A stretch of 64,000 bases of DNA from Auricularia sp. M13. Lineage: Eukaryota > Basidiomycota > Agaricomycetes > Auriculariales > Auriculariaceae. The stretch is from NCBI GenBank assembly GCA_037042915.1, contig CM073199.1:930001-994000 (forward strand), in the 5' to 3' direction. This document shows positions 27,774 to 51,276 of this stretch, one piece after another (positions within the stretch are counted from its first letter, which is position 1; every line of letters begins with the position of its first letter). The notes under the pieces were generated by a model. It saw only the letters and a program-made list of their open reading frames with translations. It had not been told where the DNA came from and did no database searches. The position numbers and the translations under genes were made by a program.

Positions 27774-29697
27774 TCACCAGGTGAAGATATACCCCACCGA
27801 GCCCGCGACGGGCACGCTGATGCGCACCTCGCCGGACGCCAGGGACATGCTGCCGCCGCCATCGAGCACCTTCTCGGCCTTCGCACGCACCCGCGCGAGC
27901 GCAGGCACGCGGACCGTCGCGCTCTGTGCGAATGCGTTCAGGTTGGTCGCAAGCACGAGCGCGCGCCGCGCGTGCGGCTGCACCCACGTCCCGACGTCAA
28001 CGCGCGACACCGCGCTGCCAGTGAACGTAGACGCCGCGGAGAGAACGAACGGCGTCAGCTTCGGGAGGGCGAGGCCCAGTGTCGTCGCCGACGCGAGGAT
28101 GTCGGGCGTTGTAGGCATGTTCCACGCGAAGCTGCCTGTGTTCGCGGTCAGTCAAGATGGGGACAACAAGAGGCTTGTATCTGCGCACCTTTTGCGCCGT
28201 GGTTGATAGAAAGCACGTTTTGCAAGAGATATTCCGGTCCAGTTGGCGCACGAGACCAGTAGCTTCGGTATATGATGAGCCGCGATATCAAGCAAGAAAA
28301 CGTGACTACTTACGAGTCCCCGCCAAATGCCTGCGGTACCGTCCAAACGGCAGATTCGAGTCCGCGGCCGAGCCATCCAAGGCGTTCGTTGAACTCATCC
28401 ATTCTATCGCTGACATCTTCGAGCACGCCCTTGCAATTGTCGCATCCGCAGTCGCCATAGTCGAGCGTGCAGTCGGTGTTCCAGACCGTGCTATGCGTCG
28501 CGTTGATGCCAATCGTGTATGTGTCCTGCATGAGGATGTCGGCGCCGGCGCTGTACTCCGGGAAGAAGTAGTTTTCGCAGTTCAGCACGAGCGACACCGG
28601 GTGGTAGCCGTCCAGTGAGTTGATCAGGTCGTACGAGTGCGTCGTTGCGTTCAGAGGGTCACCCCAACCGTCCGGCCTATGCCATAGCGTTCAGCCACAG
28701 TAAAATAGGAGGCGCAGACACAGATCACGCACTCGTCGCCGGTGTACCAGATGAGCAGATTCGGACGGGACTTGATATGGTTAACCTCCTCAGTTACAGA
28801 TGTATCGTTCATGTACGTCCTGCGAGCGGTCAATCGGGAATGTTAACTATCAAAAGGCTTTACCCACGTACCAGCGCATGTCGTACATGAGCCACAGGCC
28901 CAGTTCTTCCATACGATCGAGGACCAAGTCCAACACTGTTATGTTGGCGAAAGTGGGAACGGGGTGGATTGTGTTAATCCTATGCCCCAAACGTTAGCCA
29001 GATACGAAGGGCATGGCTAATAATCAGAAACGAACCCGCGAGCCTTTACATCGTCAAGGATAGTCAGGTTCTTTGCCAGATAATCGTCGAAGGACGTGTA
29101 GAAGCCGAATGGGAAGATGGGCTCCCAGGATTTGCCCTGCTTGACGAGCAAAGCTCCTGTCCTTGCCTCGAACTTGACAGTGTTGCCCCCAAACGGATTC
29201 GGCGGCAGGAAGAATAGTTGCGAGGTTGCATGAAAGATTCCCTTGGGACCACCCAAGGGAACAGACGCGGTGCAAGTAATCGCACGCGGGTCCGCGCTAG
29301 GCTTGATGCTTGTCAGGGACAACGGAAGCTCGATGGTGCCGCCTGGCTGGACAAGACCATGCGCGACAGTCTTTCCCGCGATGGCAACAGTTACCGTGAG
29401 GGGTACGTTGCGAGCATGAGCCGGCAGCGCGACGGCACCGTCTTCGTGCACGCGTGTTATGTGTGCATCAACGACCACAGACGCTGTCGAATCCTCGCCG
29501 GACAGGTAAGGCTTTAGTGCTGGTGCACAGCGCAGCGCGAGCAGGTCCGTATCGGACGCAGCGGGCACCTGGAACCAGCTTTCCGGTGGCGGCGGGTCGA
29601 CAGGCTTTGCTGGGTCGTAGTTCTTTCCACACCAGTTGGGTTGGGCCAGCCCTCCGCCAACGAGGGACGCGAGGACAAGCGACGTAGAGAAGAGCAT
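27774..29697 (-). CDS. Secreted TIM-barrel-type glycoside hydrolase, family unassigned
   Basis: The ATG at 29697 opens a signal peptide (MLFSTSLVLASLVGGGLA). A beta-sandwich-like amino domain with six-residue Pro and Val/Thr alternation follows (LPAHARNVPLTVTVAIAGKT), then GKSWEPIFPFGFYTSFDDYL and ILDDVKARGF, a typical barrel entry. Later exons read INTIHPVPTFANITVLDLVL, RMEELGLWLMYDMRW, IKSRPNLLIWYTGDEPDGWG with a candidate acid/base Glu, LNCENYFFPEYSAGADILMQ and ESAVWTVPQAFG. A carboxyl beta domain ends SVPVAGSVGYIFTW, with the stop at 27774. It is probably a secreted carbohydrase of about 570 residues. I recognise the fold from motif order but cannot name a CAZy family. There are about five introns of 50-60 bases. 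Confidence 0.7.
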
Positions 29698-30738
29698 GGC
29701 TAGTGGCCGTGTAAGCAGCCGTGGGTGGCGACGGCGATTTCAATGTTGGGTCATTCTGCCAGCGTGCATCACGCGGCGCGGAGCTCCATGATGCCGCAGC
29801 TTCGATGAATGCTCAGGAGCGCCGTGGGAGTCGACGGCACAGTGACAGACGTTGTCCACGCTGTTTAGGCATGGGAAGCCGCGAATATCGAGCGTCGTAT
29901 CAGCATTGGCAACAGGCTGCCAGGAGTCAAGTGAACGGCCGAAGCAGCAGATTTAATCCCGATTGTTTTGGTTTGAAGCCCGCCTCACGCCCGCCTTCAT
30001 TCAACTTGAAGCTTATCGAAATCATTCAATGTGGTCCTTTAACCTCCTGGTAACGATCCCGTTACAGTAATATCAAAGCTCCGGGAAATTCGGTTGGAGA
30101 GATCCTGTATTTTGCAGCATACCATACCATGCTTCCTCCCGGTCCAGCCTGAGAGTCGACGCAGATCCAGAACAATACTTCCCAGAGTCTAGAATAATTA
30201 GCACTAAGCAGAGTTCTCAGTTGCCGTCCGGAGCAACCGCTCCCACATACTCCCGAGGCAGCAGCGTCTGGCGGCTTCAAGTTCGTATCTCATGCCGTCC
30301 GATTCGTTCCATTCGAGCGGCTTCGATCTGTGAGAGATGCTGCCCCCAGCACAAGGATATAATGTAATCGTACGTGTTCCATGACAGACTGAGGAATTCG
30401 TCAGTAGGATCAGGATGTCGAGGTACTTTAGCTGCTATCAGAACTTCACGACGACCACCAACACTCCGTGGCCGGCGACAGTCAATCCCATGTGCTGCGA
30501 CGCCAGATATGGGTGCAAAATTCACAAAGTCAGACGTCCCCTTTTGCACGCGACTCCACGCTAATCGTCAAAAGCTCCCTCACAGATCGCGGCTCGCGTC
30601 ATCTCGAGAAGCGAAACAAAGTATGGCCACGATCTACATTTTGAAGACGCATGGCAAACCTAGGAGAAGCCGGCCAGCGGTCTTCGGGCACGAACCAGTC
30701 TATAGGGACAATCTGAGAGGTTACCGGGGCATATTGGC
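29698..30738. other. Intergenic, promoter of the secreted hydrolase and 3' flank of the coiled-coil gene
   Basis: No supported gene. A 174-codon open frame on the plus strand around 30374-30898 overlaps the 3' exon of the minus-strand coiled-coil gene. It is Arg/Ser rich, has no motif and is judged spurious. Confidence 0.45.
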
Positions 30739-37889: not shown

Positions 37890-39737
37890 CTAAGTTGTCT
37901 CCGTAAAAAAACAGGTTTCTAATGCGCGACGGTTCTCACACCTATCGCCTACACCCTCCGACAAAGTCATCTCAGCGCCGGCGGCCTCGGGGCATGTCTT
38001 CTCACTCCCCGCGATCGCACAGGCGAAACGACGCGGTAAAGGCGCTGTAGGTCGACAAAGGCGCTCGGCACAGATTTGACTTGTGAGGTGCCACGGGTCT
38101 CTGCCGTCGTTGGGATCAATGTTCGAGCATATGTCCTTTGCCTGCCTGCATGGCAAGCCCCGTGTGCTGGCCAAAGCTAGCACGTCCCGAGCATACCTCT
38201 TCGACAGCATGTCGAATGCTCTGAGCCATAGTCCATTGGGGTTTATATCTTCGCTTGTATTAGCACGGTGCGCAGTGAGTTGACGAGAAGACATACCCAA
38301 GAAGTCGCCTCGCACGAGTGTCGTCTATTTCCACATCCGACAGGTACTCAAGGGTAGCGGGCTGAAGGAAGGCGACTTGACCAATCCAATCGGGCACAAG
38401 GCCTGGCGCATGCATGAAAAGGGAGAGCATGCGATAGCGCACCCATAAAAGTAACTCGACCAGGTGTGCAAGGACGAATATAAACAGCGGGGGCACAGGC
38501 CTTAGAATAACAGGACGGGTAGCGTAATGCTGAGAAAGCGGCTAAGAAGCGCGATGGTGACTGCAGTGAAGCGCACCTGAATCGCTTTCCTTATGTCGCG
38601 CAGACACCACCCAGGACCTTTGCAGGTCACCAGGAATCTCTGAGCTGTGAGTTCCTTCACGTCATCTACAAGACTTTTGTGAGATCTGCTAGCCAGAATG
38701 ATGATAGAGACCTCACTGTCAGAGGAAGTAATCAGTAGGTCGGCATATCTGATATGAGCTGCCGCAACATCCCAGACATTCACAGAGGTTTGAGAATAGT
38801 TCTCGTCAAAGACAGGTACCTCCGGCATCGTCAGAGTCGAGGTGATTAGCCGGTCATTTGGACCGACGATGGTGCTGGTGAGAAAAATGCGTTAATCGAG
38901 TTGGCAAGTTTTAAAACTTTCGACTGGCATTCAACTCACAAGCCAGGGCGAATCACACCAGTCCGCATACCTCGCCGGCCGTTGGCTGAAATGACAATCT
39001 CTTCCGCCATCAGCTTGCTCCGAGCATAGCAACTATGTGAGAATTTGGCTGGAGGCAGAGGCCCATCGCTATCACGAATCACAGGATTATTGCCGTACGA
39101 GAGTCGACAAAAGGTTGGGCGCGGAATAGCGACGTCGCCCGAGGAGCAGTAGACGAAGGCCTTGACGTCTGCGTCTGCAGCAGCTGCCACCAGAAACGAC
39201 GTCCCAAGCACGTTGACGCTGTACGTAGGGGCAAAGGTATAGGACCAACGTTCCCAGAAGCGAATGAGCGCTGCAGTATGGATCACGATGTCTGGCGCAA
39301 TCTTTGCCATAGCATCATGAACTGTGTGCTCAGATGTTATGTCTACGGCAGAGAAAGGGACTGCCAGCAGATCTTCGGGGGGAGGTACTCGGTCCAAAAT
39401 GTGGACATGCGGTTCGCCGCGCTTCAAGAGCAGTCGCACGATGTATCTGTATCAATGCGGTCAGCAACCATTCCAAAATCACGCCAATCGCCGCTTCTTA
39501 CGAGCCAACGAAGCCCGAGCCACCGACAACAAGGTACTTGAGCCCCAATGGCTTGCTACCAATGCAAGCTAAGAGGTCAATCTCATCATAGGACACTGCA
39601 TTCAACTCCTCAACATTCGGAGAGCGCTGCGCTCGTGCACTGGGATGGGGTCCACGGAGTCGTCGGGAGAGCAGTCTGAGGTAAGCTACGACTACGCCGC
39701 CGCCTAGGAGAGCGAGGACTGCACCGCGAGCGAGCAT
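37890..39737 (-). CDS. Membrane-associated NAD(P)-dependent 3-beta-HSD/SDR-type dehydrogenase
   Basis: Extended short-chain dehydrogenase of the 3-beta-hydroxysteroid/sterol-4-carboxylate dehydrogenase type. The ATG at 39737 begins with a helix (RGAVLALLGGGVVVAYLRLL) acting as signal anchor, then the NAD site KYLVVGGSGFVGS. Next are VRLLLKRGEPHVHILDRVPP, DIVIHTAALIRFWERW, VNVLGTSFLVAAA, FVYCSSGDV (Ser of the triad) and CYARSKLMAEE (YxxxK). Later exons read TIVGPNDRLITSTLTMP, VWDVAAAHIRYADLLI, a second hydrophobic stretch (LFIFVLAHLVELLLWVRYRM) and LGYKPQWTMAQSIRHAVEE across an intron; the last exon is uncertain (end near 37890). The substrate is probably a sterol or isoprenoid; the exact reaction cannot be read. 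Confidence 0.78.
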
Positions 39738-40025: not shown

Positions 40026-41258
40026 CTATAGCGCGCGGCCTATGCGAGAAGGCTGAGATTCACGTGTCTGTGATGCCTGGTCATAGTCACTGAACGTATC
40101 GAGAGCGGGCGACGATGGTTGAACAGTCCAGTGATTAGCGTTCCATGCCGCGATCGCCCGTGCGCGGATGTAGTCGCTTGACGCCGCGCGGCGGGCAATG
40201 AGGCGTCGGCGAAGAAACCAGAATCCAAAGCATAGTAAGGAGAGCCCGAGCGCGCCTGCAATGCAACCGCCTATGAGAGCACCGCGGTTTGATCCATCAG
40301 GTGCGGATGCGTTACCCCGCAAGTTCGGACCTATGGTGCCAGTGGATGGGAGTGGGGCTTCACTGGAATTCCCAGCCAGAGGTTCCCTGGTCTGTTCCAC
40401 GGGCGAAGGGTAATCGCCAGTTTCAGAGGGAGAGGGAGCGTTCGGAATTGCTAGCGTTGCATGTGTTATGGAGGGCGCCGCAGGCTTGGATGTCTTTTGG
40501 TCCGAAGACTTTGAGGAGCGAGACGAGCGAGACGATGCATCGGTAGCGGTGGTGTATTTCACTGACTGCGACGTGCTGACCGAAACGGGAGGCAAAGGAC
40601 TGAGTTACGGGTGAGACGATTAGGACTTTGCGGCTACGTTGTAAAGTACGTACTTGATAGCCACAGTGCGGTCAAAATACAGTGCCGCGATCGAGATTGT
40701 CTGGGGTCCTTCATAGGTGAATTTCAGGTTGTACGTCAAATCGGAATGAAGGTTGTCTAGCTCGAATATTGAGCCCTCGGTGGCGCTGGCAGTGAGTAAA
40801 TATTGAGTTCCGGGATCCAATGTTACGATCGCTTGTGCCCCAGAAATCTTCTGACCAGAAATGGCAATATACGAAGTCCCTGGAGAGGGCTCAGCTCTCC
40901 ATGAAGAGAATGGGGGTTGCGTACGTTGCGTACCGCTGAATCTGATGTTGAATTGAGCCGTAGAAGAGGCAGCGCTTCGTAGGAATGAAAAAGGAGAAAG
41001 AGGTCCCGATTTATCGCCAGGCTGTGTCCACCTGTTGACGCTCAAAAAAACTGAATTATACAGACTTGGTGCGTACCATCCAGAACATGGCAAATGGGCG
41101 CAGTCCGTTTCAAGATCCAGTAATGGATGATACACAATGCGTTGATCAACGGCGAGCAAAGTCGTATGATTTTGGGGGATATCAGCAGCGACTCGAGCGA
41201 TAAATCCGTACAGCAGGCAACTGCAGACGATGGGAAGGATGCGAGGCATGCAACGCAT
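40026..41258 (-). CDS. Receptor-like single-pass protein, array member A
   Basis: Most downstream copy of five tandem paralogues. The ATG at 41258 (a second in-frame ATG at 41249) opens a signal peptide (MPRILPIVCSCLLYGFIARV). The ectodomain starts IPQNHTTLLAVDQRIVYHPL with the Cys pair CAHLPC and a Trp at the first splice site. After introns (donors GTACGC twice) it continues RFSG / TSYIAISGQKI and YNLKFTYEGPQTISIAALYF, a beta-rich jelly-roll-like domain. A short Ser/Thr/Pro stalk follows (SSRSSRSSKSSDQKTSKPAA), then one helix (LIGGCIAGALGLSLLCFGFW) and the tail RRRLIARRAASSDYIRARAI, NANHWTVQPSSP, ending ESQPSRIGRAL at 40026. It is the most diverged tail of the array: AASSDY replaces APSYAFR. 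Function unknown; probably a cell-surface protein. Confidence 0.75.
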
Positions 41259-41908
41259 GCCAGCGGACGATACCTGTCCGAGTAAAGAGCGTGAGGGCGA
41301 CGGGTCTCAGCGATGTCGTCCAGGAGGCAAAGGAGTGTAACTAGAAGCAAGCACAGGTGCGACTTGAAGCGCCATAAATCGGAAACACAACCGAGGCGAC
41401 AGCACGGCCCCGTCGCATGGAATCAGACCCTAGCTAGTAGCAAAGCTTGCAGATCTTTTGCATTGGCATCTACAGCCGTAGGGCAACACCTTGATGATGA
41501 CTTGGGCGAACTGCGTACAATGACTGCTGAATTTGGGTGATCGTAAATGTGCACGTGCTTTGCAGCTTGACTGAGCTCGTCCACAGTTGCACTGTTGCTA
41601 GCTACTGCTGCATAGTAAACAGTGCGTCGTCTGCCCCATGCAATGCACAGCCAAAGTGGCGCTGTAGAACTGTCGGTGCGAGCAAGTCGTTGATATAGTT
41701 GCCAAAGAATGTCGAGCGAAGAGCAGGGGTCGGGAATTACCTTCAGGTCTCGCGCGCAAGAACCACCTGAGCCAAGTCATCCGCCACACCTATCGAGCTA
41801 TATGTCAGAGATTATATTAATTGCACAGATTCCTACAAGACAAACGATGGTTCCATAAAGAGAACATGAACGATATAACAATAAACTAGTACAAGTCCAT
41901 CTGCAGTG
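41259..41908. other. Spacer between array members A and B
   Basis: Holds the promoter of member A and the 3' flank of member B. Short open frames only, no supported gene. Confidence 0.5.
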
Positions 41909-43366
41909 TTACACCGCAATGCCCATGCGAGACTCGGCGGTCTGCTGTCGTTCCAGCGGCAGTCTCTCTGCCATCTCGGGTCCGGCGCTGCCTTCATCAT
42001 GGAAGCCTTGCCAGCCACTCGGGACGGGCTCGGCGGGCAACGCGCCGGCACCAACACCAGCGGTGAACGGCGCGACGTCGAACTTGCCGGGGCCATTGCG
42101 GTACGCGTACGACGGCGCTCGCCGTGCGCGAATCCAGCGACGGAGGTACCAAGCGGCGAGGCCCAGAAGGAGCAGGAAGACCAGAACGCCCGAGACGATG
42201 CCGCCAATCAGCGGGCCGTTGTCGTGATGGCTGCGCGGGCGTCCGGCGCCCTCGGTCCCTGTAGGAGCCGCCGCTGGATCTGACGGATCGCCATCGCCAC
42301 CGTCTCCCCCAGCGGTGCCGCCCGGCGAATTTGGGAGGCCGCCCGTGGGCACGTTCGCAGACTCGGGTGTAGTCGACGTCCCGCCAGCCGCTCCTGAGCT
42401 TGGATCGTTCGGCTTTCCCGAATTTGACTCAGCGGGCGGGGCATCAGGGTCTGAAGGCGCAGACGTTGAATCGGGAGGCGGCGCATCGGTAGGAGCGCCG
42501 TGAGGGGAGCTAGTCTGTTCCGGAGGTGATCCTGGCGAAGAGGTGGGTTTATCCGCGCCTCCACCCGCTGGCGGTTGTGTTGACGAGGGCTGCGGCGTCG
42601 ACTGAGGCGGAGGCTTCTGCGGCGACGATGTCGGCGGCGGAGATTGTTGAGGGGGAGGTTTCTGTGACGTTTGCGACGGAGGAGGCGCGGGATTGGACGT
42701 ACTGCAGGCAGAGTGAGCAGAATCCCATGCAATGCAGGAGAATTGACTCACGGTGCGCCTGGATGACCAACACTCTCGATATACAACGCGGCGATGCTCA
42801 GATAGCCTTGTCCGCCATAAGTCATTTTGAGTGTATAGGTTTGGCTCGCGGACAACGATTCTGTCCTGAAGAGTTCGGGCTCGTTTGCGGAGGTCATCGA
42901 AAATTGTTTGCCATTCAGAGTCACTTGCGCATTCACACTGGAATCCCGCTTTCCGACAATCGATATGGCACGGCTGCCTAAGCGAGCGTAAGTAAGGTAA
43001 ATGGAGATAAATTCTGACAGTCTTACCAGAGAACGTGAAAGTCAGCGACGCAGAGCCTTTCATCGTTGTGTGCGTGGTCGAAAACTGTGCGGCAGTCCCT
43101 CCCTCGTTTGGTTGAATCCACCTAGATGTCATGGGCGATCAGGAAGATCCAGGACGCTCGAACTGGACTATTTCGTACCATTTGTTGTCGCATGGAGAGG
43201 GTACCTTTGTGCAATCACCATGGCCCAAGCCAGCGGCGACCGCAGAGTACTTGACGTTCGCGTCATCGTGACGGATGGTCAGGTGGTTATCAAGGATGTT
43301 CGCAGCCAAAGCCCATGATATAAACAAGCACAGATAAAAGCTGAGGTGGAGGGCGTTTGGCGGCAT
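41909..43366 (-). CDS. Receptor-like single-pass protein, array member B
   Basis: The ATG at 43366 gives a signal peptide (MPPNALHLSFYLCLFISWAL). The ectodomain HDDANVKYSAVAAGLGHGDC continues with TKVPSPCDNKW, giving a Cys pair; the first intron falls at the Trp. It continues WIQPNEGGTAAQFSTTHTTM, KGSASLTFTFSG, RAISIVGKRDSSVNAQVTLN and TYTLKMTYGGQGYLSIAALY. About 190 residues of Pro/Ser/Thr/Gly-rich stalk follow, such as SQTSQKPPPQQSPPPTSSPQ. Then come one helix (LIGGIVSGVLVFLLLLGLAA) and the tail LRRWIRARRAPSYAYRNGPG, ending RQQTAESRMGIAV at 41909. The HWTxRP block is absent. The closest relative within the array is member E (YSAVAxGLGHxDCTxVPSPC in both). Unknown surface protein; the stalk suggests extension through the cell wall. 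Confidence 0.8.
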
Positions 43367-43933
43367 CCCTCCGAAGCCAGTGGATGGTCAAAGCTCGAGC
43401 CGCGACCAGTAGAGAGTGTAGAATAGCGCAGGCCTTGGGAGGCAGCGCGCGCAGATGCGAGCCTCGGAACGCTGGACCTATGGGCCAGGTAGAGAATGGC
43501 AGCCAAGGTTCTCGAGCGGACTATCACCAACCACAGCCCAGTTGCGCGTTCCGGGTGCATCAGTGCCGCCGTTGCAGAAGATGCAATCAGGTCGGTCTTT
43601 ATGCGGGTCGCGTCCTCACACAATCCCCAGCACTGTTGCCTGGTCTCTGAGCCACCCGAGCTTAGACACATGCCTTGGCGATGCCGAAGTTCGATTGTCC
43701 GCTCGCCATGACAGCGCTCTTGAGCATGTCGGGTTGCGAAGGATGTGGTCAACAGGCACCGCGATCTGTTTCCGGCGCGGTTGATCGGATGCATCTCCGT
43801 TGAAGCCGCTCCGAGTCGTCTATTAAGTACTCGAAAACCTGCGAACAGAAGGAAGCTTACAGATTGTTACAGGATTCAACGGTAATAACTACATAGGCAT
43901 ACTCAGGGGCACGCGAAAGGTATAGAAGACTGG

Positions 43934-45227
43934 TCAAAGAGCAATTCCCATCTCCGATTCGGTAACCGAAGAATGCCGCTCGAGTAGCGGAGAGTGCACA
44001 GTCTCCTCTTTCGCTGGGAGAGTGAAGCTCTCCCAGTCAGCAGACCTGGGAACCGCAGGAGACTGCGGACGTTGAGTCCAGTGGGCCCCGGCGTTGCTGG
44101 CTTTTCGGAATGCATAGGACGGCGCGCGGCGCGCGAGGATGCGCCGCCGGATGAACCATGCTGCAACGACAACGATGCACAGAGATGCGGAAGCTCCAGC
44201 AATCAGGCCACCCAGTGCAGCGTGGCTGATCGGAGGAGATGGCCCATCGAGCTCAGCGGGCCCTTGTCCGCTGCTGCTGCCTTCATCGCTGCTCGGGCGA
44301 GCATGCAGGCTCTGAGATACGCTGGAGCTGCCTGACGCTGGTGTTGTAGGTCGAAGTGTTTCAGTATTCCCTGTCCAAACGAGAGAATGTGAGATTGATG
44401 TCTGAGAATATGGACCGACAAACCATTGGTCGCCGAGGATGTCGAAAAATGCGGCGGCCTGATTAACACGATAAGTTTCTTCCCGTATGACCAGGAGCAG
44501 ACATACTGCATAGGAATAACCTTTGAGTTTGGGTCGAGGCCAAATCCTACGATTCTAAGCTCGCCCTCGCCTCCATAGTTGATGGTTAGATTGTATGTTT
44601 CATGCGGCCTCAGGTTACTGGCACCAGCAAATGGCCCAGAACTCTGAGTAGTGGTCCAGAATGACAGAAGTGACGAATCATTGTTTAACCGTATGTCCAG
44701 CCCGTGCTTATCCTTACTCCACGGGCAGCCACCAAAAATTGTGATGGTAGTGCTTCCTGCGGTACGTTGAGCCTGAAAGCCGCCTTTTGAAACCACGATG
44801 CCAGCAGCACACGCTACCTTTGAACAACATTGCCAGTCCTGTACTGTGGTCTGGTCCCGTCGTGACATAGGCCGACTCATTCTTGACCCGCATCCTGACC
44901 ATATCCAGTGATAAATAGTGGATAAGCACTGCCTGAGATTGCGCACCACGTATTGCGACAGGGATCCTTGCATTGATCGTCAATCAGAGGGTAATAGACT
45001 ATGCTGGAATCGTTGTATGGAATATTAAGCTTCGCGTGCCGAGGCGGCAACTCAGACTGCAGCATGGCAAAGGCTCGTAAGAAACGGAGTTGGGGTATCA
45101 AGCCAGAAGAAGAGGGTTCAGCGATTCGGATAAAGGACCAGCCACGCCTTGCAGAGGCGACAGTCGACCTGGAGCGATGGAAGACGCGGTGGATGTTTTG
45201 GGTCAACGCAGACACGGACGCAGTCAT
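43934..45227 (-). CDS. Receptor-like single-pass protein, array member C, 5' end doubtful
   Basis: Ectodomain LNIPYNDSSIVYYPLIDDQC continues with KDPCRNTW; the first intron falls at the Trp (donor GTGCGC). Then MRVKNESAYVTTGPDHSTGL, AMLFKG, STTITIFGGCPWSKDKHGLD, RLNNDSSLLSFWTTTQSSGP and HETYNLTINYGGEGELRIVG follow. A stalk of about 60 residues (TTPASGSSSVSQSLHARPSS) precedes one helix (LGGLIAGASASLCIVVVAAW) and the tail RRRILARRAPSYAFRK, GAHWTQRPQSP, SADWESFTLP, ending TESEMGIAL at 43934. Upstream of the ectodomain I find no credible signal peptide. The in-frame upstream ATGs (45227; 45065) give basic or non-hydrophobic sequence, so the 5' exon is either missed or decayed. Confidence 0.65.
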
Positions 45228-45632
45228 GGTTCTTCATAAAGCAGGCTAACAGTCGGAAGTGGCGGTTCTAAGACGTTGGTACAGCAGGCGGGCGGCCGTC
45301 AAGCAGGTTCTTTCACACCGCCTCGCTAACGCAAGCAGACAACCCAGGCGGGACCGGTAGGAACGGCGCTGGATTTCGCTAGAGAACAATAATGGACTGC
45401 GCACACAGGCACGGTACGCAGCTTGGGCTGGATTAGACGGCATCGCAGGTAGTCGAAGAGGAATGGGAAAAGAGCAAGAGACGGAAGCTTTACACATGGT
45501 GATCCGGACATCGACTGAACAGGCGATGAGCAGTTATCAACTGGAATTGTCCAAAAATGCGCCTAAGTTCCTATGAGCTCTAACAGACAGCGCTTGGGGT
45601 AACATCCTACAAAGGTACCTTGCTAACCAACG
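45228..45632. other. Spacer between array members C and D
   Basis: No supported gene. Several short open frames occur; any lost signal-peptide exon of member C would be expected here, but none was recognised. Confidence 0.45.
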
Positions 45633-46991
45633 TCACAGAGCGAGTCCGAGGCCAGATTCTGAGCCGAGCGTCGCGCGACGCTCGTCGAATAACGGTGTCT
45701 GCACACTCTGAATCTGCTTCTTCGTCTCGACTTGGCCGTCCTTCTCCAGCGGGAGCGCGAACGACTCCCATTCGGCTGAGCTTGGGACTATGGGCGATAT
45801 AGGCCGCTCAGTCCAATGCGCGTCCTGGTGGAATGTACGCGTTCGGAACGCGTACGATGGCGCACGACGTGCTCGCACGCGGCGACGGAGGTACAACACC
45901 GCCAAGGCTAGTATGAGGATGAAGATTAGGACACCAGCGACAATTCCGCCAATAAGTGCACCGCGTCCTTTCCTGCCACGCTTCAGCTGCACAGATTGTG
46001 TTGTGCTCGGTGCTGCCATATCGCTCATTGTCGTAGCGCTATACTTCTGGCCCGTTGTTGGTCCCACAGGAGGTGAAACTTCTACGGCGGGTTTGGTTGA
46101 TACTGGTGCGATCACAGAGGATTTCGTGGACGCCAGAGACGGCGAAGCACTCGGTGGAAGATCAGAATGAGTAACAGTGGCAGTGGAAGCATTCAAAGGG
46201 TCGCGGTCTGTATGGGTAGTGGGCGTCGGAGCTTGTGGATCTCTATCAGCGCTCGAACCTGGTTGAGAAGGTTCACTCGTTCTGAAAGATTAGAAAGAGT
46301 CTCCTCGAAATACGATTTGAACGTACTGTTTGGCGCTTATGTCAAGAAATGTGCCACTCGAGTCGATCCCTACGGCCATAATCCATAGAAAATCAACGCC
46401 CGAGTATTGCAATGTCATTGTATATGTATGTTGACGTTTGACGTCCGTCTTTTCGAAAATTCGCCCTTCGTCCTTAGGCTGGGCTGGAATTGGAATTGGT
46501 GTGTTACCAGTACGTGTGCTGATGGTGACGCGTGTGGCCTTCTTGGCCCCACCATCGACTTTCCCTAGGACGGCGATCGTTCTGCTACCTGCAGTATACA
46601 GTATCAATGATGCGGAGAAATGCCCTCCAACTCGATATCGTACCAGTGAATGCGACAGACATGGTCCGATTCTCAGAACCGAGTTGGGTTGTGTGCATTG
46701 TCTCGGAGCAGTTGAGACTGAGACTAGTACTCTTCGGTTCCTGCCACCTGAACGAGGGTTGATTCATTGCCATGTAACAGACATAACAGCTACGTACCAG
46801 CTGTTTTAACACCCATTAGTATCTCGAGGACAAATTCCATTCGACCCATCCACCACAGGGGAGTAGACGATTTTAGAATCGTCGTGCAAAAGTAGCTGAA
46901 GATCGGGCTCTGTGGTTCCGTCGTTGCAATTGACCACGTTAGAGGCAGCGCTGAGACGAATGGTCAAAAGGAGGATGAGATACGCCAGCAT
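45633..46991 (-). pseudogene. Receptor-like single-pass protein, array member D, with in-frame stop codon in exon 1
   Basis: The ATG at 46991 gives a signal peptide (MLAYLILLLTIRLSAAS). It is followed by DLQLLLHDDSKIVYSPVVDG, the Cys pair CPRDTNGC and then a TAA at 46806-46808, two codons before the Trp where homologues splice (donor GTACG at 46797). Beyond it the gene is intact. WQEPKSTSLSLNCSETMHTT, MSVAFTG, SRTIAVLGKVDGG and TYTMTLQYSGVDFLWIMAVG are followed by a Ser/Thr/Pro stalk, one helix (LIGGIVAGVLIFILILALAV) and the tail RRRVRARRAPSYAFRTRTFH, HWTERPISP, SAEWESFALP, ending ESGLGLAL at 45633. A single substitution explains the stop, so this is a recent pseudogene, a read-through case or a sequence error. 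Confidence 0.65.
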
Positions 46992-48019
46992 CTCTCCAGC
47001 GTCGAGCTGAAGCGAGTGAGAGCGAGTCAAGGAGCGTGTTCAAGGCTAGAATGCAGGCAAGTGACCGGCGCACAACACAGAAATGCACTGGTGAAGGGAT
47101 AAAGACACTGCACCCACACCGATCGTCAAGTACAAGAACAGCCACAGGTGCGGGAGCGTCGCTGCTTCTCAGGGACACGCTTCGCTTGTGTCGTTGTTGG
47201 CACTGCCCGGGAAACTGTCAGCAGTCTATCAATGCAGGTTGGGTACCGCGCGTCTGCTCGGTCGATGATCAGGCATCATGTTGGAGGAGCGTCAGTGAGG
47301 ACGAGGTCGCAATAGGCATGAACAAGCCAGGTCAGTCGCAACCGCGATAGTAAACAGAACGGTCACAGCAGGTCAAAGACTTGCGGTTCAAAAAGCAGCA
47401 GCTATCACTAGAAAGGGCGATCAATGTGGTTGTGACTTGTAGGGTAGCCAGTGGTATCAGATCAAAAGCCCTGACAAGACGGTCAGGAATCAGGATGCGC
47501 AAGTCCAAGATGCGCGTCTCGGCCATGATCTGCCCCTGCTGTGCAGTGTATCTGCTCGCGTCTCATTAGACTAGCTCTTCACCCGTTCGGTAGCACCAAA
47601 CGTCCAGGAGCAGGCTGTGCGAGGCAGATTCACGGTCGGGACGAATGCGACTTGGAGCGGAGCTGCAGCACCAGACGGGCAAGGCACTGTTGAGCAAAGG
47701 GATTGAGTCATGAACATCGCGAAGAACAATCGCAAATCTGGGGAGAAGGGCTATCCTCGTGCTAACCGCGGAGCTCAGGCGGTGTAGGCGCAGGGTGCAA
47801 ATCCAAGAAGATCGAAAGGGCTTAGTAGGCGGTACCGAGCGAGAACGGGCAGAGTGGCAGTCGCAGCTGCTTGCGCATCCTACATAAAGTGATCGTCGAA
47901 TTCGCAGCAGAACAACAAAGCGATTGCTTACAAGGCTTAAAACTATAACAATAGAGGTCCAACCCCCACAGCATGTGCACCGTGCAGCCCTCCACACAAA
48001 CACACCTTGCTGTATTGCA
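46992..48019. other. 1-kb spacer between array members D and E
   Basis: Contains the promoter of member D and the 3' flank of member E. A 386-codon minus-strand frame (47566-48726) runs through here but is Arg/Ser-rich. It overlaps member E in a different frame, where GC bias keeps alternative frames open, so I reject it as a gene. Confidence 0.5.
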
Positions 48020-49346
48020 CTATTGCAGTGGCTTCTCAACCATCTCGGGTTGCGGCGACGAAGGGCGTTGCGTCCAGTGCGGCGGCGGCGCGGCAAACTC
48101 GCCGGGGCCATGGCGGAATGCGTACGACGGCGCGCGGCGCGCGAGGACGCGCCGGCGGGCGTACCACGCGGCCAGCGCGCCGAGCAGAATGAGCGCGAGG
48201 ATGGCACCGACCACGCCACCGACGATGGCGCCCGTGGTCTTCTTTCTGCCGTTCTGGCTAGACTGCGGGCTGCCAGCGCCCGCGTTGCCAGGCTGGTCGC
48301 TGGCGGTGTCGGAACCGACGTTCTCGTCGTCGTCGCCAGAAGGCGGGGTGACGGCGTTGCTGTTGCCGTCATCGGGGCCAATAGCGGTGCCGCTCTCCGT
48401 CGGGGCCGTGCGCGTGCTTGAGGGAGAAGTGTCGTCGTGATCGCCCGGCGCGTCGGATGGCTGTTGTGCGCCTTCTGCCGGGTCTGACGACGGCTTCGGC
48501 TTGGACGAAGTCGAAGTGGACCCGCTGCCTGGCGGCAACGTCGTGTCTGTGGGCTTCTGGCTCTGGCCTGGTGGCGTCTTCGTTGGCTCGGTTGGATTGG
48601 AAGGAGCAGGCTGCATCGTGGGTCCAGGCAGATGACTCTGCTCGGGTTCCTGTGGTGCAGGCAATGCTTGTCCTGGGCTGAAAAGCTGATGAGCAATGCA
48701 TGTGTAGAAATAAAGCTAAGGCTCAACTCACGCTACGCGTGCGCTTTTGTCGACTGCAAAACCAGCAAAACCGAGCGTGCCGTGCCCTCCATAATTTAGA
48801 ACAACATTGTAGGTCTTCGAAGGGTTCAAGCTTGTTATCGAGAAAAGGAGGGCGTCTGTGTCGCTCGACAGCGGAAAGGGTGCGCCGTTGAGCGAGACGG
48901 CGGCGGACACACTGCTGTCGCGCTTTCCACCCAAGATGAGCTGTTTGCTACCTGGACGACTGTCAGAAAGACGCCTGTCACACGGGTTCAGACAGCTCCC
49001 TACCAGAAAAAGCGAATGATAACGAAGAGCCCGGACCCGTTGTCGCATGCCTGGTGCTAACGAGGTACGCGGTCCCGCCTTCGTTCTGCTCGGTCCACCT
49101 ACGCCTACGTTAGAAAGACTTGATCTCAGAGTCTAGCAGCATAACGCACCATTTGCTTGCGCAGGGAGACGGTACTCTCGTGCAATCAGCATGGCCCAGC
49201 CCGTTCGCGACCGCCGAATAACGAATATTGGCGTTCGTATGCGGGACCATTTGGACGTCGCCGCCGAACCCGCCACCGCCGCCCTGGGCAAGGACGCCGG
49301 TTATCAAGCTCAAGCAGGCGCCAAGGAAGAGGGAGTATTGCGGCAT
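48020..49346 (-). CDS. Receptor-like single-pass protein, array member E, short tail
   Basis: The first gene of the array in the direction of transcription. The ATG at 49346 gives a signal peptide (MPQYSLFLGACLSLITGVLA), then VQMVPHTNANIRYSAVANGL, GHADCTRVPSPCASKW and a splice at the Trp. Next are TEQNEGGTAYLVSTRHATTG, SSLSFAFSG, SKQLILGGKRDSSVSAAVSL and TYNVVLNYGGHGTLGFAGFA. A Pro/Ser/Thr stalk of about 150 residues follows (for example SQKPTDTTLPPGSGSTSTSS), then one helix (IVGGVVGAILALILLGALAA) and the tail RRRVLARRAPSYAFRHGPGE, HWTQRPSSP, ending PEMVEKPLQ at 48020. Unlike A-D it lacks the C-terminal xGxAL end; member B continues beyond the matching PEMAERLPL. Unknown surface protein. Confidence 0.8.
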
Positions 49347-50067
49347 CCCTCGAGTACCAGTGGTGGATGATAACGAGCGTTTAGTTGGAGCGGGTCCAGC
49401 GCCGGGACAGGAGCACGAGACACAGAAAGGCAGCCCAGGGCCCTAGGAGCAGGGCTAGCGACGGCGAGGTCGACGTCCAGGGATGAGTGTTGCCAGATCT
49501 GAGTTCTTCCCGGGTTCTATCAGCGTCAGTTCTCAGAGATGCATCCATCACCGCGGCCCGGCCGCAGCAGATCTCTATTTGCAATCCGCTGCAAGCGATT
49601 CCGCGGGGGAGTTTCATGGTATGTGGCTGCGAGAAGATATTCAGTAAACTGATTCCCTGAGCGTAGACTGGGTATACCAGGATATTCGGGTTTGCCGTGA
49701 ATCCTTAAATCCTGCATATATCAATTCATACCAACATCAAGAGGAACCTTGATCCGCTCTACAGGGGCAGCGACGACGAGCGCGTTCCGAAAGGAGTGTT
49801 TCGAGGATGAGAACAGTATTGCAGAACACATCACACCTCAATATAATAGCTGTCATGGCAAGTAAGGCTAAGATATTAAAATTCCGACGTTCACCTTGGG
49901 TTACAGCAGCACTTCTTGAAACCTCGTGGAATCAACTTTCGTTGGTAATCGTGGCTTGAAAACAGTGGTACAAATACAGGTCGCGCATTCGTGCGCCATA
50001 AAACCACAACAATCAGCAGAAGTAGGTACCGTAGTTCTGAAACAATGCAAATATTCGGACCGCAAGC
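49347..50067. other. Intergenic between array member E and otubain, with a small open frame
   Basis: A 78-codon frame on the minus strand (49381-49617) ends with a hydrophobic stretch (LALLLGPWAAFLCLVLLS) followed by RRWTRSN. It could be a small tail-anchored protein or the last exon of an unrecognised gene. Nothing else supports it, so I do not call it as a gene. Confidence 0.35.
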
Positions 50068-51276
50068 TCACGATCTTTCAAGAATGTCGTAGTGGCCGGG
50101 CCTGGAGAGACTTGTGTCAACAATGGAAGAGCACTTCCAAACGACACGCACCTATATAGCAGCTCAACCTCGTTCGACCCACTGCTCTCGCTAGGCAGGC
50201 CATCAATCCTGTTCTGGAACTCCACAAACTCGACATTGTCGCCGGACCCGCGGCCGTCGAGGTACGCGATGCGCACATTGACCTGCAGCGCGCGCGCAAG
50301 CGCGGTGACTTGCACATGGTCGGCCTCGCGCCCGATCGCCTCGACGAACGACTCGCAGAACTCGCGCACGCCCATCGGCTCGCCCGTCTCGGGGTGGAAG
50401 AGGAACGCGGCGTAGTTATCGGCATCCGCGCGAATTTGCGCTGACGTGAGCAGGCGCAGGAAGACCACAATCGAGTTGGACGCTTCCGCCGTTTGGAAGG
50501 CCTCGAGCAGGATGGCGGGCGTCAGCCGTTCACCCGTCGCGCCGTCGGGTTTGACGATCTGCTCGATCACGGAGCGGAAGACCTCGTAGAAATCTTCGTA
50601 CTGTAGTCAACGGTGAGAGTCGCTGGTGAAAAGCGTCGGTTTTGTGGAACGCACGACGAGGGGCTCAAAGCCCGCGCTCTTCAAGAGCGGCAGGGTTGCG
50701 TCCAGGGTCGAAAGCGCGCTCGCCACGGCCAAAGCCACGTCCGGTGCGTTCAGGATTTTCTCGATATACGCAAAAGCGATGGCTACGCAGATCTCAGTCC
50801 CCAGTGCAAATTGACAAGAATTCTGGAAGGAAGCTTACATCGATAAAAGCAGTCTCCGTCGCCTCGTGACCGCCGGAGAGAGGTGTAACCTTGCTTCACA
50901 AGCCAGTCTATGCGCCGGACGAATGCAGACGAGCCGCCTTCGTATTCGCGTCGTATCTCGCTCATAGGCAAAGACGGTGAAATCAGCTCGCGTTCGCGCG
51001 ACACAACGCCCGTCTCTTCCAACATCTTTTGGTTGAGCTCAAGCAATTGCGCATGTGAGAGTTTCGCAAGATCTGACACATATCAGGTGAGATTGTGTTG
51101 AGAACGCTATAAACAGCCCCATACTTACCAGGATCAGTGGCATTGGCAAAGCCAGTGTCTTGTGCTTTGTAGTTTCGAGGCAAAAAGGCGTTATAACGTG
51201 GCGGTGAGTACCGAGCGGCGGGCAAGAAGAACGCGTTAGAGTCGTAAGTGTAGCTCTCAGGGTAAAAGTAGTGCAT
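50068..51276 (-). CDS. Otubain-type deubiquitinase (peptidase C65)
   Basis: Cysteine protease that removes ubiquitin chains. The ATG at 51276 starts MHYFYPESYTYDSNAFFLPA. After an intron near 51125 the protein continues DLAKLSHAQLLELNQKMLEE, YTSLRRSRGDGDCFYR (Asp and Cys of the catalytic site in DGDC) and SFAFAYIEKILNA. Then come DFYEVFRSVIEQIVKPDGAT, FLRLLTSAQIRADADNYAAF, MGVREFCESFVEAIGREADH, VQVTALARALQVNVRIAYLD and VELLYR. An intron joins this to PGHYDILERS at 50068, which carries the catalytic His. Domain order and length (about 330 residues) match otubains. Four or so introns of 50-60 bases are present. The catalytic Asp, Cys and His are all present. Confidence 0.88.

Follow-up and report, generated by a model that had tools for sequence, protein, structure and literature searches.

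Five tandem receptor-like genes in Auricularia sp. M13: conserved tails, diverged heads and a wider same-genome family

What could five neighbouring fungal genes do whose products differ in their outer part and agree in their inner end? The question is raised by a stretch of 64,000 nucleotides (nt) from Auricularia sp. M13 (assembly GCA_037042915.1, contig CM073199.1, positions 930,001–994,000 of the forward strand), which we call the window. Its minus strand carries five complete genes, A to E, arranged head-to-tail from the ATG of A at 49346 to the stop of E at 40026. In each product, a β-rich head is followed by a stalk rich in Ser, Thr and Pro, a single membrane helix and an inner tail that is conserved across the row. 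Because the genes have introns in common and their tails are homologous, sequence comparison indicates that A–E share descent through tandem duplication, as a sequence-only reading of the window had proposed. At the sequence level, the array proves to belong to a large receptor-like family in this genome, within which it forms a distinct, locus-specific and divergent branch. As to function, we put it at about an even chance that A–E are wall-spanning, single-pass glycan sensors, in which diverged heads work through one common cytosolic partner.

Gene models and protein anatomy

The splice sites were set by eye with the alignment as guide, which gave the following spliced models (lengths in amino acids, aa).

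48020..49346, minus strand: gene A, 389 aa; exons 49346-49150, 49098-49004, 48951-48732, 48677-48020; introns of 51/52/54 nt, phases 2, 1, 2
45633..46991, minus strand: gene B, 397 aa; exons 46991-46813, 46747-46644, 46588-46327, 46281-45633; phases 2, 1, 2
43934..45065, minus strand: gene C, 305 aa as modelled; exons 45065-44947, 44894-44818, 44756-44507, 44458-44424, 44370-43934; no signal peptide found
41909..43366, minus strand: gene D, 433 aa; exons 43366-43179, 43121-43027, 42977-42752, 42701-41909; phases 2, 1, 2
40026..41258, minus strand: gene E, 359 aa; exons 41258-41077, 41031-40934, 40879-40654, 40599-40026; phases 2, 1, 2

Three introns, of phases 2, 1 and 2, are located at the same alignment places in all five genes. 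The second follows F-x-G and the third lies at the head end; the first had been placed at one and the same Trp, which holds for the alignment place in 5/5 genes and for the codon in 4/5, the divided codon of B being Gly. The introns are 45–65 bases in length, and a fourth intron is present in C only, which therefore has five exons. The donor of intron 1 in gene B, GTGTTA, is unusual. In gene E, introns 1 and 2, at 45 and 54 nt, are both divisible by three and free of stop codons, and the head is open as a single 228-aa frame (40623–41306, minus strand); a longer head would result from intron retention. Chance resemblance of A–E was rejected on the common intron phases and on the genome-wide tail matches described below. 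In loci of the clustered-protocadherin type, variable exons are spliced onto a single constant exon; in A–E, by contrast, every model ends in a tail exon of its own. Trans-splicing could still operate.

The heads are 133–143 residues in length. They are followed by stalks of 66–166 residues, in which Ser, Thr and Pro together make up 43–51% in 5/5 proteins, and by a single hydrophobic helix whose first residues include GG, also in 5/5; both features agree with the sequence-only reading, as does the single architecture of the row. The calls of signal peptide, stalk and helix rest on hydropathy and composition. The tails, counted from the first RR, are 45–84 residues long with a net charge of +2 to +5. 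The short basic tail described earlier is thus basic mainly beside the membrane, and at up to 84 residues it is not uniformly short. Two further features had been ascribed to every member. One is the Cys pair directly before the first splice site, present in A, C, D and E and reduced to one Cys in B; the other is the signal peptide, for which A, B, D and E have a matching start.

For gene C, three enumerated starts reach a hydrophobicity peak of at most 0.55, compared to 2.26–2.70 in the other four. Either its 5′ end is mis-modelled, or C is a decaying copy, or its product is routed unlike A, B, D and E. Gene C (43934–45065) also lacks the second Trp and has a shorter exon 2, in addition to its extra intron and the absence of a signal peptide in the starts tried; it is possibly a decaying or re-purposed copy.

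Outside A–E, six-frame profile searches of the window found no additional head or tail copy at E < 0.01. The array is bordered by two exons of other types, and one further open frame in the window begins like a secreted protein.

38939..39451: exon of 3-beta-hydroxysteroid dehydrogenase (3-beta-HSD)/epimerase type
50016..50606: exon of otubain type
29020..29739, minus strand: open frame whose start resembles a signal peptide (MLFSTSLVLASLVGGGLAQPNWCGKNY...), without a Pfam match at E ≤ 0.001

Conservation of the tail and age of the array

The inner ends of the five proteins are listed below.

48020..48238, minus strand: helix and tail of gene A, RRRVLARRAPSYAFR, with HWTQRPSSP and without the C-terminal motif of B–E
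45633..45968, minus strand: helix and tail of gene B, RRRVRARRAPSYAFR, with HWTERPISP and C-terminal ESGLGLAL
43934..44227, minus strand: helix and tail of gene C, RRRILARRAPSYAFR, with HWTQRPQSP and C-terminal ESEMGIAL
41909..42220, minus strand: helix and tail of gene D, RRWIRARRAPSYAYR, with C-terminal ESRMGIAV
40026..40289, minus strand: helix and tail of gene E, RRRLIARRAASSDYIR, with HWTVQPSSP and C-terminal PSRIGRAL; the most divergent of the five tails

All tails open with RR(R/W)xxARRA, in which ARRA is invariant in 5/5. In the tail alignment, ARRAPSYA(F/Y)R is present in A–D and in a worn form in E; HWTxxPxSP is shared by A, B, C and E, and the C-terminal Sx(M/L/I)GxA(L/V) by B–E. 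Used as a genome-wide query, the helix plus tail of gene C matched the other four array genes with E-values from 1.5e-20 to 3.5e-8, and the single further match at E ≤ 10 had E 1.87. A degenerate DNA pattern for ARRAPSYA occurs four times in 52.1 Mb, each time inside one of A–D. The same pattern reversed, as a control, has seven matches in 52.1 Mb; chance matches outside the array were therefore to be expected, and none was seen. Elsewhere in the genome, the array tail motif has no match.

In 10/10 array pairs, the tails are more alike than the heads, whose identity is 22–49%. Likewise, the non-synonymous divergence (dN) of the tail is lower than that of the head in 10/10 pairs, by a small margin in D–E (0.74 vs 0.76). 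These values bear out the proposal that the ectodomains diversify on a constant intracellular end. They also bear on the idea that A–E are structural wall glycoproteins, tethered to the membrane and without a role in signalling. A purely structural function would fit the profile matches of A–E, among which no known signalling domain was found. Against it stand a tail that in all pairs is better conserved than the head, an invariant ARRA and a C-terminus alike in 4/5, and we regard it as quite improbable.

The head synonymous sites are saturated in 9/10 pairs, and a recent duplication of the array was rejected on this ground. The proportion of synonymous differences (pS) is 0.54–0.77 in the tails vs 0.72–0.87 in the heads and is lower in the tail in 10/10 pairs; the synonymous divergence (dS) of the tail is measurable in 8/10 pairs, at 0.96–2.55. 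Among identical residues, codon identity of the heads is at the shuffled level (118 vs 122.5 expected), and that of the tails is slightly raised (123 vs 108.4 expected; 35/1000 shuffles). The excess is largest in A–C (16 vs 9.6), followed by B–D (19 vs 14.9). Genes A and C have in common an exact run of 22 bases in their juxtamembrane codons (48126–48147 and 44118–44139); this run and the codon-identity excess of the pair are possibly a trace of gene conversion. Conversion was rejected as the chief explanation for the conserved tails, the codon-identity excess being slight (123 vs 108). Since tail pS is the lower in all pairs, it may still have played a part, as may codon constraint. Taken together, the substitution patterns fit best with genes that duplicated long ago and whose tails are under purifying selection.

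A receptor-like family elsewhere in the genome

The sequence-only reading had named no known system with this layout, but the layout is not special to the array. With a head from contig 4 (C4) as seed, 23 places in the genome were matched at E ≤ 1. A second family-head seed gave 43 places at E ≤ 1, of which 34 reached E ≤ 0.001, and a third gave 37; several places cluster on contigs 2 and 8 (C2 and C8). None of the three seeds, each searched as a single sequence, returned the array, so the link between array and family was tested by profiles. The profile of A–E with a sixth gene, F (see below), matched that of 26 family heads with probability 91.6 and score 42.2. In the controls, the reversed alignment gave probability 1.4 and score 17.0, and the best values from 100 column shuffles were 1.2 and 15.0. 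When 34 head pieces (exon 3 part) were placed in a tree, a branch with support 99/96 separated A–E and F from the rest; the tree program warned of long branches for C, F, B and E, whose placement is unsure. These comparisons establish a distant kinship, in which the conserved His and Asp of the family are absent from the array in the head alignments.

The family also resembles the array in gene structure and order of parts. The phase-1 intron after F-x-G, present in 5/5 array genes, corresponds to a phase-1 acceptor AG|G in 21/37 distinct family hits; 12 read through and four are uninformative, in counts made by eye and on the acceptor side only. A helix plus basic stretch lies within 1.8 kb downstream of 47/52 family head hits (overlapping loci included; five without a helix), compared to 3/52 on the opposite strand and 5/200 random points in other loci, the random points including eight loci from an uninformative genome-wide pattern search. 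In the loci scanned, 26 distinct family places have a head followed by helix and basic stretch. At L035 (C3 near 2568 kb), L036/L039 (C10 near 3001 kb) and L031/L040 (C9 near 2350 kb), at least two heads stand in succession before one helix. Between C2:397–416 kb and C2:627–645 kb (L041/L042, L044/L045), several receptor-like genes are present twice, about 229,460 bases apart, with equal match scores and with identical peptides where both were read; either the segment was duplicated recently or the assembly is at fault here.

The sixth gene with a similar head, F (L022, C7 near 1911 kb), lies about 0.93 Mb from the array. With the head of gene D as query, the matches were A, E and, at E 0.052, B, followed by C4:241862 (E 0.117) and C7:1911255, which is F (E 2.07). 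The F head shares 33% identity with A (E 2e-17) and with D (E 1e-20), 24% with C and 19% with E, with E-values computed for a database size set by hand; there was no match to B in the same comparison. Read by eye, F has a signal-peptide-like start, C-C-KWW, a helix plus basic stretch, and splice sites of phase 2 at the Trp and phase 1 at F-x-G, which are the first two of the array. Different from the array, its tail carries PPSY, and it sits outside the row.

The tails of array and family differ. [PL]PxY is present in 17/26 family tails (13 of them PPxY), whereas 2000 shuffles gave 1.2 on average and never more than 5; two pairs of these tails are identical copies, and 15/24 have the motif after one of each is removed. 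The survey covered 36 scanned loci, a subset of all places matched by the seeds, and some tails may end early at an intron. The unnamed family (for example L030 at C8:2280168, L029 at C4:241730 and L044 at C2:408423) is like the array in its profile-related head, frequent phase-1 F-x-G intron, helix plus basic stretch and clustering, whereas most of its tails are of the [PL]PxY type and those of the array of the ARRAPSYAFR type, with a PPxY-type motif in 0/5 proteins. In PMC2171029, the WW domains of the ligase Rsp5 are described as binding partners of PPXY proteins, and Rsp5 itself as a factor in the ubiquitin-dependent internalisation and sorting of membrane proteins. WW matches number 13 in this genome, and two loci with three WW each account for six of them. 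Judged by these tails, the array branch either lost a PPxY link or never had it.

Such proteins are abundant in mushroom-forming fungi. Literature searches, covering listings and the starts of abstracts, found no description of this receptor-like family, which is no proof of absence. Its many further members, partly clustered, and the diverged heads on a conserved tail would suit recognition receptors, each head binding a different outside glycan of other hyphae, bacteria or plant polysaccharide, in line with the surface recognition that the sequence-only reading had considered. The array gives no sign of recent expansion, its head synonymous sites being saturated in 9/10 pairs, and this makes the recognition role rather unlikely in our judgement. 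A more specific version is highly improbable: the array would be a fungal contact-recognition set of five glycan-reading heads with separate ligands and one branch-specific tail partner, in which the PPxY tail (Rsp5-type turnover) was swapped for an ARRAPSYAFR docking site and the identity of kin or neighbours would be read combinatorially.

Head fold, a candidate mechanism and known systems

The fold of the heads bears on the glycan sensing that we prefer. Gene A matched CE2_N at E 0.13, below the cut-off, and the best family member at E 0.0013, with 19.2 bits vs a cut-off of 27.9 and thus also sub-threshold. Profile searches of the PDB returned nothing at E < 0.01. A partial head model gave 534 weak Foldseek matches, none at E ≤ 0.001; many rows are bacterial toxin-pore, phage and protease domains, which we read as a common sandwich arrangement and not as kinship. 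Of the lectin and jelly-roll folds proposed earlier for comparison, a carbohydrate-binding-like jelly roll is weakly favoured on the sub-threshold CE2_N matches and the partial model. Eight families were matched at E ≤ 1 by any of A–E. TM_ErbB1 (PF21314), matched by 3/5 at this level, was rejected (best E 0.09, 13 bits vs a cut-off of 27.1), and so was membership of the WSC family, PF01822 being absent from the eight.

As wall-spanning sensors, A–E might work as follows. The head, a jelly roll, would probably bind glycans; the glycosylatable Ser/Thr/Pro rod would cross the wall and lead to the one membrane helix; and the conserved tail most likely docks one common cytosolic partner at its basic ARRAPSYAFR segment. 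Differing heads could then report differing ligands or wall states into a single output.

The same parts might also serve pure wall-stress mechanosensors like Wsc1 and Mid2, in which the head would be no more than an anchor in the cell's own wall, the stalk a spring and the tail an input to the cell-wall-integrity pathway. The order of parts in the array is that of Wsc sensors, which a passage of PMC9024836 gives as extracellular domain, glycosylated Ser/Thr-rich region, one helix and cytoplasmic tail. Yet A–E have no WSC domain. Elsewhere in the genome there are 61 exon matches to WSC at E ≤ 0.001, many near each other and forming a large WSC set, so that WSC heads of the canonical kind are not lacking. 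In addition, head identity of 22–49% seems more divergence than one wall ligand would need. We therefore consider pure mechanosensing rather doubtful.

According to a passage of a genome comparison (PMC2939053), leucine-rich-repeat pattern-recognition receptors are missing from fungi. Part of this absent surface-sensing repertoire might be supplied by a large family whose heads are glycan-binding-like and whose tails are membrane-anchored. The array lends itself to clean tests, with five natural head variants, one conserved tail, and F as an outgroup with a different tail.

Two known systems stand nearest to the glycan sensors proposed here. To CE2_N and the jelly-roll domains of carbohydrate-binding modules (CBM), the heads are linked by the sub-threshold profile match of family members and a similar partial fold; all matches stay under every curated cut-off, and the esterase domain was not found in A–E. 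From yeast Wsc1, Wsc2 and Wsc3, whose head is the WSC domain, the array differs in heads without a PF01822 match, and it has the same order of parts as set out for Wsc sensors in the cited passage (stalk, helix and tail in 5/5, signal peptide in 4/5). By analogy, A–E would act in the mode of Wsc-type sensors, with an unrelated head.
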